Both the position numbers and the translations under genes were made by a program. The notes under the pieces were generated by a model that made no database searches, was not told the origin of the DNA, and was given only the letters and a program-made list of their open reading frames with translations. This document shows, one piece after another, positions 9,222 through 25,236 of a DNA stretch of 26,089 bases. The stretch is from a virus, in IMG/VR virus record IMGVR_UViG_3300048006_000180, positions 1 to 26,089 of that record, one strand, 5' to 3'. Positions within the stretch are counted from its first letter, which is position 1; every line of letters begins with the position of its first letter.

Positions 9222-11351
9222 TTAACGCCTTATCTCCTTAGTGTATCTACGAAAAAACTTCTTGTCATCGAATCGCGCCTCTTTTTTATTGACCTTCGTT
9301 TTTTGCGCCCCTAATAATGCAAGGCCGCTCGATATTGTTAAATCATATTTTGTACGATTGTCAATTTTGTAGCCAATCCAATCATCCAGAGTTCTTTGGA
9401 AATACATTTTTCCCATCTCCCCAGTCTGAGTATTTATACCTACGTGTTCTTCTACGTAAGCTTCTATTGCATGAGCATGAGCCTGTATGACATCTACTGA
9501 GTTAGAAGGTATACCTCTTGTCTTAGTATTGGAAGATGAATTAGGAGACTTTAGATGTTCTGGTCTCCTCATTACATACTCTTGGTATCCACGGGATTCA
9601 AAGTGTCTTACGATTCCGTATTTGTTATTCTCTATTAGAAGAGGATATCCGTAGAACACAGCGGCCATCAAAACGTCTTCGTAGAATATCTTTGCTAGAG
9701 GCGGTCTTGATGCATACTCTGCTACGAACATGTTTGCTGGAGCTGCCATATTAAACTTGTTGTACAAATGACAAGCACCCTTTGACCCTCTGTTGTCTGT
9801 CGTAGAATCTAAATCATAGCTATCCACACCGCCTACACCTATGTGCTCGTTTGCAGGATATTTAGCTCCATACTTTATAACGTGTTTGTTTCTGTTCTCT
9901 GGCTTAGGCATCCAAGAAACCCTCCACCTACCTTGAGGATTTGGACTAAATACAACCTCGCTGTCAGCAGCTCCTTCTTTCCAGCTAAAATTACCTTGAA
10001 CCACTGGATTTGGATACAACTCTTGATTGTGCTCAACTTGCTCGTATATCTTTCCGATATTAAAAGTAGACCCTTCAATACTGTCTCTCATTGACTCATC
10101 TATAGTAAACGGAAACTGACGTATAAATTCATTTAGCTCTCTAGCGTCATGCTTAAGCGCTTCTCTTTCATTCTTTAAATAAGTCTTTGCACCTATGTCT
10201 ACGTAATCACCGTCAATTGTTTTTACTGGCTTATCTGGGTTTTCTATAACTGGCATTCCGTACTCGTCAAAAAATCCCTCAAGAGCTTCAAAGGCTGGTA
10301 TAAATAAACGATACAGCCCTGTCTTTGTCCTGCCGTTTGCATTTCTATCTTCTGGGTCTGAGTCTCTCCAGAGCTCTTTGTATTGACGACCGCCTTTATC
10401 CATTGGGTTAACAGTAGAACCCATAAGACATTTACCTATAATCTTACGACCTACAATTAAACAGGTTTTTTCTATTCGCCATGCTTCACGAATATCCGTA
10501 GGCTTCTCCCACTTACCGCTTTCATCTAAATACATTAAATGAAGCTTCTCACCATCATATGCGTTATTGGTCGTGTTCTTCCAATTTATAATCGTATTAA
10601 GGGCTTCGCCCTTGTTAGATGTTTTATTATTCTTTGTGATACGTTTAGAAGGCTCTCTAAAGGCGAGCTCCATACGTGGATTGGTTGTACCATCCTGTAT
10701 AGGCTTAAAGAAGAAGGGGTAGCTTTTAAACATAGGAACTACCTTCTTCATAAAGATATTTTCCTGTGCGTCTTTACCTGTCTTGGACTGTATGCCTAGC
10801 AGTTTGTCTTTTACTTGAGTACCCTCGTCTACTAGTATAGCCGCTGAAATATTGGTGTATCCAGAGCGTCTACATTTGGTATACATCTGACCAATGCATC
10901 TTGAATCTGCTTCACAGGCCGCAAAATGAATAAATAGTTTTCTTTGAAAGTCTAAAAATGAAGCATAGCCTATATCCATCTTGCTCCATTGTAACATCAT
11001 ATAGTGTCTCCCTGTAATGTAGACAGGCTTGCCGTTATTGTAAAACCAAAGACCGTTGCGCCTGCGCTCAAACTCTTTCTCGATGTACGGAGAAAATTTC
11101 TTTTTGAATTCTGACTGCATTTCATACCACTCATCCATAGAGCGAATCCTCTGCAATTCTTCTGGCACAGGAAGTCTTCTCCACATTTGCAAATGAGGCT
11201 TCCGTTCATATCCAAGGATTTCTTTTTTAGGGGGTAATTTGGGAAGCTGAATATTAATCCCACCAATTTCGGTAACCTCGCCATCTGTATCGTTGGGACA
11301 TATATTGATAACATAGTTATCATACCCTTCAATTTGTTTAAGTCCAGCCAT
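9222..11351 (-). CDS. terL: Terminase large subunit (packaging ATPase-nuclease)
   Basis: The 709-residue protein has the two-domain layout of TerL, the motor that pumps DNA through the portal and cuts concatemers. After an N-terminal extension with YITGRHYMMLQW (111-122) comes a deviant Walker A, KCRRSGYTN (159-167), and a Walker B, LHLMYLDE (270-277), with D276 and catalytic E277. GSTVNP (311-316) fits the coupling motif. In the nuclease domain, acidic candidates are D510/D513 (GVGGVDSYDLD), E574 (LLIENN) and D620 (SVDVIQAHAHA). The N-terminal motif recalls TerL of crAss-like and Cellulophaga phages, from memory only. The 5' coding end carries a strong promoter for the opposite strand (11333-11364). 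Confidence 0.93.
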   Translation of the reverse strand: MAGLKQIEGYDNYVINICPNDTDGEVTEIGGINIQLPKLPPKKEILGYERKPHLQMWRRLPVPEELQRIRSMDEWYEMQSEFKKKFSPYIEKEFERRRNGLWFYNNGKPVYITGRHYMMLQWSKMDIGYASFLDFQRKLFIHFAACEADSRCIGQMYTKCRRSGYTNISAAILVDEGTQVKDKLLGIQSKTGKDAQENIFMKKVVPMFKSYPFFFKPIQDGTTNPRMELAFREPSKRITKNNKTSNKGEALNTIINWKNTTNNAYDGEKLHLMYLDESGKWEKPTDIREAWRIEKTCLIVGRKIIGKCLMGSTVNPMDKGGRQYKELWRDSDPEDRNANGRTKTGLYRLFIPAFEALEGFFDEYGMPVIENPDKPVKTIDGDYVDIGAKTYLKNEREALKHDARELNEFIRQFPFTIDESMRDSIEGSTFNIGKIYEQVEHNQELYPNPVVQGNFSWKEGAADSEVVFSPNPQGRWRVSWMPKPENRNKHVIKYGAKYPANEHIGVGGVDSYDLDSTTDNRGSKGACHLYNKFNMAAPANMFVAEYASRPPLAKIFYEDVLMAAVFYGYPLLIENNKYGIVRHFESRGYQEYVMRRPEHLKSPNSSSNTKTRGIPSNSVDVIQAHAHAIEAYVEEHVGINTQTGEMGKMYFQRTLDDWIGYKIDNRTKYDLTISSGLALLGAQKTKVNKKEARFDDKKFFRRYTKEIRR

Positions 11352-11364
11352 TTCATTAAATTTG
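11333..11364 (+). promoter_or_regulatory. Near-ideal Bacteroidota promoter for the plus-strand lipoprotein
   Basis: TTTG (11333-11336), a 20-base spacer, then TAAATTTG (11357-11364) match both elements of the Bacteroidota vegetative promoter with the preferred spacing. It lies inside the first codons of terL, read the other way. The expected start of transcription is within a few bases of the lipoprotein ATG at 11369, so the message may be leaderless. Confidence 0.75.
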
Positions 11365-11368
11365 ATTT

Positions 11369-11494
11369 ATGAAACGTATTATATTAATAGCTTCTATTCT
11401 TTTATTGTCATCTTGCGCTACACAAAAAAATTCGTGTAAGTCCTTGAATAAATGCACCTACGAAGGCGAGCATTATCATATTATTAGACATTAG
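11369..11494 (+). CDS. 41-aa predicted lipoprotein, opposite to the late genes
   Basis: This small plus-strand gene encodes MKRIILIASILLLSSCATQK followed by about 21 polar residues rich in Cys, Lys and His. The basic N-terminus, hydrophobic core and lipobox L13-S14-S15-C16 form a lipoprotein signal, giving a mature peptide of about 26 residues anchored by lipid at C16. The +2 residue is Ala, so outer-membrane sorting is possible. It is wedged between terL and the 97-aa gene, both on the minus strand, and has its own promoter. Known phage lipoproteins of this size act in superinfection exclusion or as outer-membrane spanins. Since a separate spanin is encoded at 15425-15841, an exclusion or host-altering role is the better guess. 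Confidence 0.75.
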   Translation: MKRIILIASILLLSSCATQKNSCKSLNKCTYEGEHYHIIRH

Positions 11495-11518
11495 TAGTCC
11501 CAGTAACAGAATATCTGA

Positions 11519-11812
11519 TTACTTTGAGAACTTTTCTGCAAATCCACCAGAGTAGTCTTGTTCTTCTTCGATTCCTCCAGTTTCTCGGAGTTCTCTAACC
11601 ATTTGTTCAAGTCTTTGGTATTCGATAAGCAGTTCTTTTGCATCAGTAGCTGTTTGTTTAATACTCTGTAATTCAGCCTTACGCTGAGAGCCAGAAAGTT
11701 CTGAGTCTACAGGCTTCCTAACCTCGTCAATCATGTTGTTTATCGCAACCTCCATAGAGGACAATAATCGAGTTGACGCTTCTTCTGTGGTAAATTTACT
11801 TTTCTTTGGCAT
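11519..11812 (-). CDS. Small helical protein upstream of terL
   Basis: This 97-residue protein starts MPKKSKFTTEEASTRLLSSM and is almost wholly helical and charged, with a probable coiled coil around residues 45-80 (KELLIEYQRLEQMVREL). Its start overlaps the GroES-like gene by 17 bases, so translation is probably coupled. The position just before terL would suit a small terminase subunit, but no helix-turn-helix is evident and the plus-strand lipoprotein lies between the two. I leave it as unknown, with a small terminase or scaffold as possibilities. Confidence 0.65.
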   Translation of the reverse strand: MPKKSKFTTEEASTRLLSSMEVAINNMIDEVRKPVDSELSGSQRKAELQSIKQTATDAKELLIEYQRLEQMVRELRETGGIEEEQDYSGGFAEKFSK

Positions 11813-14686: not shown

Positions 14687-14907
14687 TATTTTTTAGCTCT
14701 GTTGCGTTTAGCAGTTATAAATTTCTTTTCATCGTGGTCATAGTCCATACCATCTCCATTACCATATCTCCCAGACTTACGTCTCATCCTGTTTAAGAAT
14801 GCACGGTACTTCTTACGAGCTTCGGTAGAATGGTACTTCTTATCGTACTTCTTCTTTTTATCTCTGGCCTTTTTATTCTTGGCGTAGTATTTAGCCGTCT
14901 TACCCAT
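14686..14907 (-). CDS. Highly basic small phage protein
   Basis: I choose the ATG at 14907, giving MGKTAKYYAKNKKARDKKKK and 73 residues; an in-frame ATG ten codons earlier (14937) would overlap the endolysin more deeply. About 40 percent of residues are Lys or Arg. The motif RAFLNRMRRKSGRYGNGDGMD near residues 37-57 belongs to a small family that recurs in marine phages, from memory. It starts 8 bases inside the end of the endolysin gene. The charge suggests binding DNA or RNA, but no fold is evident. Confidence 0.72.
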   Translation of the reverse strand: MGKTAKYYAKNKKARDKKKKYDKKYHSTEARKKYRAFLNRMRRKSGRYGNGDGMDYDHDEKKFITAKRNRAKK

Positions 14908-15364
14908 ACGGTACGTATCTTGTTTTTCCGTCCACACGCACCGCTTTTAGTACTTGATTACGATTTCTACTATCTTTTTTGTGAGATATATGCACCCAGT
15001 CTGGATTCTCATCAGTCCCAAACTCCCAGATAAGCTGGTCAAATTCAAGCCTATCTAACGCAAAGTTAAATATGTCTGCATTAGTAATAACACCGTACAC
15101 GTCTGCATCGAGGTCAAGCGCCTCACCTTTACTATGCTGAGAGGTTTTACTCCCCCCGATAGCCTCATTAAGCGCTTCGCTTCTGTACCCAGAGCTCACG
15201 AAGATAGGGCACATAAATTCCTCACGAATAGGTTGGAATATGTTTTCTGCCACCGCCTTTAGATTCTCAAGATGCGCTTCTGTCGGTTCGTTTGCAATCC
15301 CTCGCCTCTTCGCAGTAGCAGACTTCGTCACTTCCGCAAGAGAAAGGTTCTTTGATAGATGCAT
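14900..15364 (-). CDS. Endolysin, peptidase M15 family
   Basis: This 154-residue protein carries the zinc-peptidase signature of the M15 family: S-x-H-x-x-G-x-A-x-D at 75-84 (SQHSKGEALD, with H77 and D84) and W-x-H at 123-125 (DWVHIS, H125). It also has a GYRS motif at 59-62 and WEFG near 113. These residues bind zinc and drive cleavage of peptide cross-links in peptidoglycan, so it lyses the cell from the periplasm after holin release. No signal peptide is present, as expected for a holin-dependent endolysin. It lies with the holin and spanin candidates in one tightly packed lysis cassette. Confidence 0.9.
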   Translation of the reverse strand: MHLSKNLSLAEVTKSATAKRRGIANEPTEAHLENLKAVAENIFQPIREEFMCPIFVSSGYRSEALNEAIGGSKTSQHSKGEALDLDADVYGVITNADIFNFALDRLEFDQLIWEFGTDENPDWVHISHKKDSRNRNQVLKAVRVDGKTRYVPYG

Positions 15365-15440
15365 AATTGTAATCGCTTAAGTAATAGTATGTTACAAAAG
15401 CAAAGATAATCAATAAAACTAGAATTATGAGCGCCACCAT
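15267..15440 (-). CDS. Small single-pass membrane protein in the lysis cassette
   Basis: From ATG at 15440 the frame reads MVALIILVLLIIFAFVTYYY, a strong transmembrane helix, followed by a short tail with four Cys near SCGSDEVCYC. An ATG at 15461 would add seven residues and overlap the spanin more. The hydrophobic part is coded almost exactly by the 60-base gap between spanin and endolysin, while the tail overlaps the endolysin start by 98 bases. Small membrane proteins here can be antiholins, second holins or pinholins. The long overlap leaves doubt that it is translated. Confidence 0.42.
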   Translation of the reverse strand: MVALIILVLLIIFAFVTYYYLSDYNYASIKEPFSCGSDEVCYCEEARDCKRTDRSAS

Positions 15441-15841
15441 TTTCCTACAATCATTATACAACCCATTAAAATGGATATCATTAATATCATATCTTTAAAC
15501 TTGTCCCAGAAAGTTTTCTTCTCTACGTATACTATCTTCTCGTAAGGAACTTCAATAGTCCGAACTATCGTATCCGAGTCGCATATTGCGTCTATAGTAA
15601 TCGTGTCGTTCACCTTTACTATCTTGACTCTCAGTCTGTCCTTTACCAGAGTAATAGTATCGTGTTGCTTCATAATCACAGTATCCGTGATAGCCACAGG
15701 TGGGCTGACAACCGTGTCCGTCACAACCAGCGTGTCTCTTTCCAGAATCATAGGGTCTTTCTGCACCGCTTTCTTTAAGTGCCATTGAGCGCTGCAACTC
15801 GTTAATGACGTTAGTAGAATTAACTTTACCAGCCATTTCAT
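15425..15841 (-). CDS. Putative unimolecular spanin (u-spanin)
   Basis: The 138-residue protein combines an N-terminal lipoprotein signal (MKWLVKLILLTSLTSCSAQW, lipobox L13-T14-S15, C16) with a C-terminal transmembrane helix (about residues 116-134, KDMILMISILMGCIMIVGKW). The central part is beta-rich with Val/Ile/Thr/Asp repeats. This is the layout of phage T1 gp11-type u-spanins, in which one protein links outer and inner membrane and fuses them in the last step of lysis of Gram-negative cells. Its ATG overlaps the holin stop by one base and the endolysin follows. It confirms a host with an outer membrane. Confidence 0.75.
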   Translation of the reverse strand: MKWLVKLILLTSLTSCSAQWHLKKAVQKDPMILERDTLVVTDTVVSPPVAITDTVIMKQHDTITLVKDRLRVKIVKVNDTITIDAICDSDTIVRTIEVPYEKIVYVEKKTFWDKFKDMILMISILMGCIMIVGKWWRS

Positions 15842-24678: not shown

Positions 24679-25236
24679 ATGAATATAATTTCTGAATCCA
24701 CAATCAACGCTTTAGACCAAGAGCTTTTAGTCAAAGAATTTTGGGAATCTATGGCTGATTTGTACACGCTAGAAAACAATAGGCAGCGAAGAAACATAGT
24801 CTACAAACATTCTTTCTTTGTTTCCTGTAGAGAGCTTACAACGCTTTCACTATCATCAATCGGTGGTGTTCTTGGCAAAGACCATGCTACTGTATTACAC
24901 GCTATTAAAAATCATTCTCAGAATTATATACATGATAAATCATACAGAGAGGTTTATGACCAGATGTATGACTCACTGCATTCCAGAATGGAAGACTTCA
25001 CAGAGGGAGTCAATACCTTAATACAGAGAAGAATTAATAAGATGGATATTGATTCCTTTTCTACTTCTATGATTACTATGTATAAATCTAGATTAGAAAA
25101 ACAGAAGTATAATTATGAGTTGCAGATTGAAGCTTTAAAGAGGGAAAACAAAATATTCAAGAAACAACTAAAGGCTAGTAGAAATCGTGAGCAAACACTA
25201 AATACAGAATGTTTAAGATTAAAGAATCTAATATGA
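24679..25236 (+). CDS. Stand-alone DnaA domain IV (origin-binding) protein
   Basis: The 185-residue protein lacks the AAA+ ATPase of full DnaA but carries its DNA-binding domain at about residues 35-85. LSLSSIGGVLGKDHATVLHA (56-75) matches the DnaA signature of bacterial initiators, G-x-D-H-x-T-V-x-x-A, with H69 and T71 as the usual DNA contacts. The C-terminal half is a Lys/Glu-rich coiled coil (KYNYELQIEALKRENKIFKK). It may bind DnaA boxes or a phage origin and recruit or block host DnaA. Candidate repeat sites lie just downstream (25401-25453, 25661-25696). It stands in a coupled operon of small genes. Confidence 0.85.
   Translation: MNIISESTINALDQELLVKEFWESMADLYTLENNRQRRNIVYKHSFFVSCRELTTLSLSSIGGVLGKDHATVLHAIKNHSQNYIHDKSYREVYDQMYDSLHSRMEDFTEGVNTLIQRRINKMDIDSFSTSMITMYKSRLEKQKYNYELQIEALKRENKIFKKQLKASRNREQTLNTECLRLKNLI

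Follow-up and report, generated by a model that had tools for sequence, protein, structure and literature searches.

What does a phage gain from a gene of only 41 codons that lies on the strand opposite to both of its neighbours? The question is raised by a 26,089-base virus record (IMG/VR IMGVR_UViG_3300048006_000180, positions 1 to 26,089), which as a whole is called the window here. An earlier note, made from the sequence alone, had described in it a 41-aa lipoprotein gene on the plus strand between two late minus-strand genes, with a consensus promoter of its own, a probable leaderless mRNA and a role typical of superinfection exclusion or host modification. The locus has the following features.

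9222..11351, minus strand: terL, terminase large subunit, the divergent neighbour (PHROG 6681, E=5e-203)
11333..11336, plus strand: TTTG, a -33-like element inside terL codons (read from the sequence)
11352..11518, no strand: insertion slot, 167 nt in the window against 37-40 nt in most empty-slot relatives
11357..11364, plus strand: TAAATTTG, which fits the Bacteroidota -7 consensus TAHHTTTG, with a predicted start at or next to the ATG (read from the sequence)
11369..11494, plus strand: 41-aa lipoprotein precursor, type A family member (ORF, homologues, pS/pN, type B profile)
11414..11416, plus strand: codon of the lipobox Cys16, predicted lipidation site (Cys in 46 of 46 aligned members)
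11435..11479, plus strand: conserved head C23-x5-C29-x5-H35-x-H37 (alignment of 46 members)
11519..11812, minus strand: p97, a 97-aa small gene before terL, putatively TerS-like, the convergent neighbour (weak PHROG 20415 match only)

PHROG matches place the lipoprotein gene in the head and packaging region, and a GroES-like gene is close by. Both neighbours are on the minus strand, as the note had it; their designation as late is drawn only from structural and packaging functions. The window TerL is 48% identical to that of the uncultured podovirus MW202828, about 40% to that of Flavobacterium phage Elemovirus and 33-38% to those of the Cellulophaga phages phi18:3 and phi38:1, and because of these identities a Bacteroidota host, probably a flavobacterial one, can fairly be assumed. 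In Elemovirus and Callevirus (L246, L249, L250), the annotated TerL follows the GroES gene directly and exceeds that of the window by about 170 aa. This suggests that a p97-like gene has there been fused to TerL and is functionally linked to it, which is why we read p97 as TerS-like. In the rightward region of the window, a 185-aa protein (24679-25236, plus strand) contains a DnaA C-terminal helix-turn-helix domain (PF08299, E=1.6e-9).

The open reading frame is a gene under selection

The precursor reads MKRIILIASILLLSSC followed by ATQKNSCKSLNKCTYEGEHYHIIRH, with a clean signal peptide and the lipobox LSSC, and it lies where the note had placed it. Three further contigs (L104-L106) encode an identical protein; L013, the nearest homologue, is 68% identical and L024 51%. 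In the comparison of the window gene with L013, pS is 0.81 for synonymous and pN 0.22 for non-synonymous sites, which indicates that the gene is under purifying selection at the protein level. Because of this ratio, and because position, lipobox and motif recur across the family, the reading frame is better than chance; we consider the gene confirmed by these comparisons, and selection together with family conservation rules out a spurious ORF. Its independent placement, antisense to both terL and p97, is likewise genuine, judging by pS/pN, the family and the slot.

A family with two types

The window protein belongs to what we find, from sequence comparison, to be a previously undescribed family of tiny phage lipoproteins with a C-C-H-x-H head in uncultured Bacteroidota phages. 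Members have a lipobox Cys, then usually C-x4/5-C-x5/6-H-x-H, and a mature peptide of 26-39 aa (26 aa in the window). Across an alignment of 46 members, no change is seen in the lipobox Cys, in the second Cys of the head (C29) or in either His (H35, H37); the first head Cys (C23) is at least 90% conserved, and 44 members keep the head spacing. Loss of the lipobox in close relatives, which the note had named as an outcome that would speak against it, was not seen. Across divergent members the two Cys and the two His are the most conserved mature residues, and the rest is variable; most members are net acidic, and the window protein is positive. AlphaFold is confident only for part of the signal helix and, with a mean pLDDT of 61, uninformative beyond it.

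Type A (the window, L013 and the L024 group) ends in KC[TR]YE[GP]EHYH. In type B, by far the more frequent of the two, the end of the protein reads C-x4-C-[DE]-I-x-A-[IV]-H-x-H or a closely similar variant. A type B profile matches the window protein with E=1.3e-8, signal peptide included. As signal peptides dominate such comparisons, we discarded the full-length A5-A8 comparison (97.9% probability) as evidence and used a test on mature sequences instead, in which types A and B give a weak match (E=0.007) that beats 40 of 40 column shuffles. Common descent of the two types is likely, though not proven, because this match comes together with the same slot and the same architecture.

The database searches used returned no annotated family member. 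Among 50,697 phage records there was no family match, in a search whose sensitivity is limited for a 41-aa protein, and cultured phages gave no credible match by tblastn with five members or by blastn with the window gene. Host origin was also considered: an exact match to the peptide pattern or the leader described below was absent from 84,980 prokaryote genomes, which excludes close copies only.

Occupied and empty slots

A terL search of viral contigs yielded 80 loci. As close relatives we took the 25 whose terL reaches 84% identity or more and whose upstream sequence is available, near-identical contigs among them, and since IMG/VR records are mostly fragments, presence or absence was scored only where the slot itself was sequenced. 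The lipoprotein that the note had proposed to look for at this spot was found in six of the 25 (L013, L015, L018, L022, L023, L024), and the slot is empty in 19. In seven representative cultured or named relatives the slot is closed, and a profile search of the whole records found no full-length family member. Both types stand next to each other in one slot at L087:5827-6138, and the same holds for L024, L088, L090 and L091; in this L024/L087 group, type A is co-oriented with terL whereas type B is antisense to it, and the two have a 45-nt spacer in common.

The gap between p97 and terL has a further peculiarity. In the +1 frame past the p97 stop (window 11491-11523, minus strand), the short extension S[SN]Q[VI]F[ICL]YWDY-stop is conserved in close relatives; in those further away, the +1 frame gives other extensions, such as one beginning SDWKEIVWKRNN. 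A conserved hairpin was rejected (minus-strand z = -2.4 in the window, but -0.6 in L082), and conservation in the gap points rather to a putative coding extension in the +1 frame, a candidate for a programmed frameshift or an overlapping ORF by terL.

Promoter-like sequences and the type B leader

Upstream of the window gene, the order is TTTG, a 20-base spacer, TAAATTTG, ATTT and ATG. Letters and spacing are as the note had described them, but as a promoter the match is no better than chance: TTTG-N18..21-TANNTTTG occurs once in the window against about 0.8 expected, and the -7 element TANNTTTG 28 times against 28.4 expected. The TTTG lies inside terL codons because terL starts at 11351, and it is also found in some empty-slot relatives, for the reason that it is terL coding sequence. 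The -7 candidate TAAATTTG is identical in L013 and L104/L105, and L013 agrees with the window in every base of the non-coding part, CATTTCATTAAATTTGATTT, though the adjoining terL codons have drifted.

Promoters of F. johnsoniae have TAHHTTTG as their -7 element, which precedes the start site by 4-5 nt, and a weak -33 element; of the transcripts predicted in this species, 87% have leaders longer than 10 nt (PMC6847099). If the -7 element of the window is used, transcription would possibly start at the ATG and the mRNA would be leaderless, as the note had proposed, but for type A only. Type B genes have TAnnTTTA, without the usual G, and 18-22 nt from this -7-like element to the ATG; because of this gap and of the F. 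johnsoniae leaders, a leaderless mRNA would be a peculiarity of type A.

Ahead of type B genes stands a leader that hardly varies, TAnnTTTACATTAAATTAACATT, with 2-8 bases between it and the ATG. A DNA-only scan of 2.9 million viral contigs with the leader core as pattern (ACATTAAMTTAACATTN{2,9}ATGARR) gave 69 contigs, of which 63 encode the lipoprotein, three are cut by sequence ends but fit, and three hold one unrelated gene. As such a scan itself selects for the leader, the reverse test was needed: a search by nothing but the peptide pattern gave 29 distinct proteins, of which 28 have the leader and the remaining one (L084) a near-variant. With up to 3 mismatches allowed, none of nine records has more than one copy of the leader, which rules it out as a general phage promoter, and in four records known to have the gene the single copy stands at the gene. 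It is more conserved than the type B protein. Upstream of the window gene the type B leader is absent; the region CATTTCATTAAATTTGATTT could have been derived from it by a deletion between two CATT repeats.

A moron-like cassette

Wherever terL is in view, type B loci are antisense to it and lie 34-50 nt from its start, or 178 nt in the L087 group, with type A in between. In four long records with a terL 66-67% identical (G013, G014, G016, G019), a single full-length lipoprotein is surrounded by small genes in the vicinity of a primase-helicase, and terL is about 16-18 kb away. In the L102/L103/L158 group it sits between minus-strand genes near exonuclease and rII-like genes, and the 63.6-kb record of this group has no homologue of the window terL; at least one phage (G011) has the cassette without a window-type terL. 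In the other inspected groups, too, the gene runs against its immediate neighbours. There is one copy per record searched, except in the L024/L087 group, where each type is present once.

The best explanation for this distribution is a compact, self-contained, moron-like accessory cassette, which would comprise its own promoter region and one tiny secreted lipoprotein, oriented against the surrounding operon. Since it opposes the direction of the operon, read-through would give antisense RNA and not message. As with phage morons, a single gene with a promoter-like region is present or absent between conserved genes among relatives (6 and 19 of the 25 above), and in type B it has a gene-specific leader; promoter activity is predicted. 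Classical morons come from temperate phages and also have a terminator. Unlike in those, none of the window proteins that were searched could be assigned to lysogeny, and 3' of the window gene there is only a weak hairpin (z = -1.9, plus strand) with no clear T-run, absent in L082, in a region that is also coding-like on the other strand. The broader proposal, that the mini-lipoprotein family (26-39 aa mature, C-C-H-x-H) passes from one Bacteroidota phage to another as an autonomous cassette with a dedicated leader, unrepeated elsewhere in the records checked, is one we put forward tentatively, at somewhat less than even odds.

What the lipoprotein may do

We suggest the following model. The host lipoprotein pathway would lipidate Cys16 and carry the peptide to the outer membrane. 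Bacteroidota lipoproteins destined for the surface have an export consensus just past the Cys, such as K-(D/E)2 or Q-A-(D/E)2 (PMC5080379). None of the 46 members has such a motif by patterns based on that work, and because of the lipobox and this absence we infer a position on the periplasmic face. There a disulfide or a metal ion would close the 26-residue head, C-x5-C-x5-H-x-H, and the head would attach to the periplasmic side of an outer-membrane protein. The most likely target would be the receptor of the phage, a TonB-dependent transporter or a porin, and its blockage would protect the infected cell from further phages. The working principle would be like that of T5 Llp or Cor, with a different build. 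By analogy with T5 Llp, a small periplasm-facing phage lipoprotein that blocks a TonB-dependent receptor and thereby adsorption (PMC9586334), such receptor blocking is the most likely mechanism, with a probability of roughly 0.4.

The likeness to Llp lies in a tiny phage outer-membrane lipoprotein that is expected to face the periplasm, has paired cysteines and would need no other phage protein. Llp, however, is longer, has a Cys11-Cys58 disulfide and is encoded beside the pb5 receptor-binding gene (PMC9586334), whereas the window protein has 26 mature residues with a C-C-H-x-H head and family genes lie beside terL or replication genes. The PDB match to Llp covers residues 1-19 only, mainly the signal peptide. 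Cor of T1/phi80-type phages (PHROG 1119) is also a short lipoprotein and gives a weak profile match (E=8e-4). Most of this match falls in the signal peptide, however, and across the family spanin profiles do equally well, so that we reject the match as a sign of membership in Cor. The family thus shares with Cor and Llp the lipobox signal peptide II (46 of 46), but the mature peptide (26-39 aa) has no detectable sequence relation to either. Nor do the loci lie beside a recognised receptor-binding gene, the neighbours being terL/p97/GroES, small genes near the primase-helicase, or exonuclease and rII-like genes. Both of these points argue against exclusion, as do the weak match between the mature parts of types A and B and the uninformative structure prediction.

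The paired Cys and His of the head fit metal binding as well as receptor binding. The lipoprotein might therefore be a periplasmic effector: with zinc, copper or haem bound by its C-x4/5-C-x5-H-x-H head at the outer membrane, it would inhibit a host metalloprotein, an envelope protease or a metal-uptake receptor, and so aid infection rather than exclude rivals. That precisely these four residues are the conserved ones in an otherwise variable mature peptide speaks for it, but Pfam and PDB searches gave no homologue of known metal-binding function, and in the oxidising periplasm the Cys pair may be a mere disulfide; overall we hold it to be rather unlikely. A role in lysis, as a minimal o-spanin or a bacteriocin-release-like peptide that disrupts the outer membrane, is less probable still. 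The protein is small, like Rz1-type o-spanins a short phage-encoded outer-membrane lipoprotein, and Rz-like spanin profiles (PHROG 1275) pick up nine members, but mainly via the signal peptide. Rz1-type genes lie beside or nested in the i-spanin gene of a lysis module; the window gene adjoins no i-spanin or lysis gene, is antisense to a presumed late operon and is dispensable, being missing from most close relatives. The lysis region of the window lies elsewhere (14900-15841) and has its own lipoprotein:

14900-15364, minus strand: M15-peptidase endolysin
15425-15841, minus strand: 138-aa lipoprotein beginning MKWLVKLILLTSLTSCSAQ, by the endolysin, no PHROG match

The latter is a probable lysis or spanin component and the better spanin candidate, and we regard a spanin identity as improbable for the window gene.

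Finally, the DNA rather than the protein could matter, if an antisense promoter or RNA held terL or late read-through in check. The high conservation of the type B leader relative to its protein and the antisense position close to the terL start would suit this, but the purifying selection on the protein, and the same cassette far from terL in related phages and in G011, make it highly improbable.

Significance

The gene is an example of how antisense genes of 41 codons get overlooked, and the leader core now makes it easy to find, as it retrieves the family almost without false matches. The family is small enough for peptide synthesis, its four or five invariant residues are open to single mutation, and close relatives with a naturally empty or occupied slot offer a ready comparison. 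To our knowledge, few superinfection-exclusion or host-takeover factors are known for marine Bacteroidota phages. If the proposal of a mobile family with a dedicated leader is true, the family would be a new class of metal- or disulfide-closed peptides among phage exclusion or host-takeover factors, with its own mode of expression.
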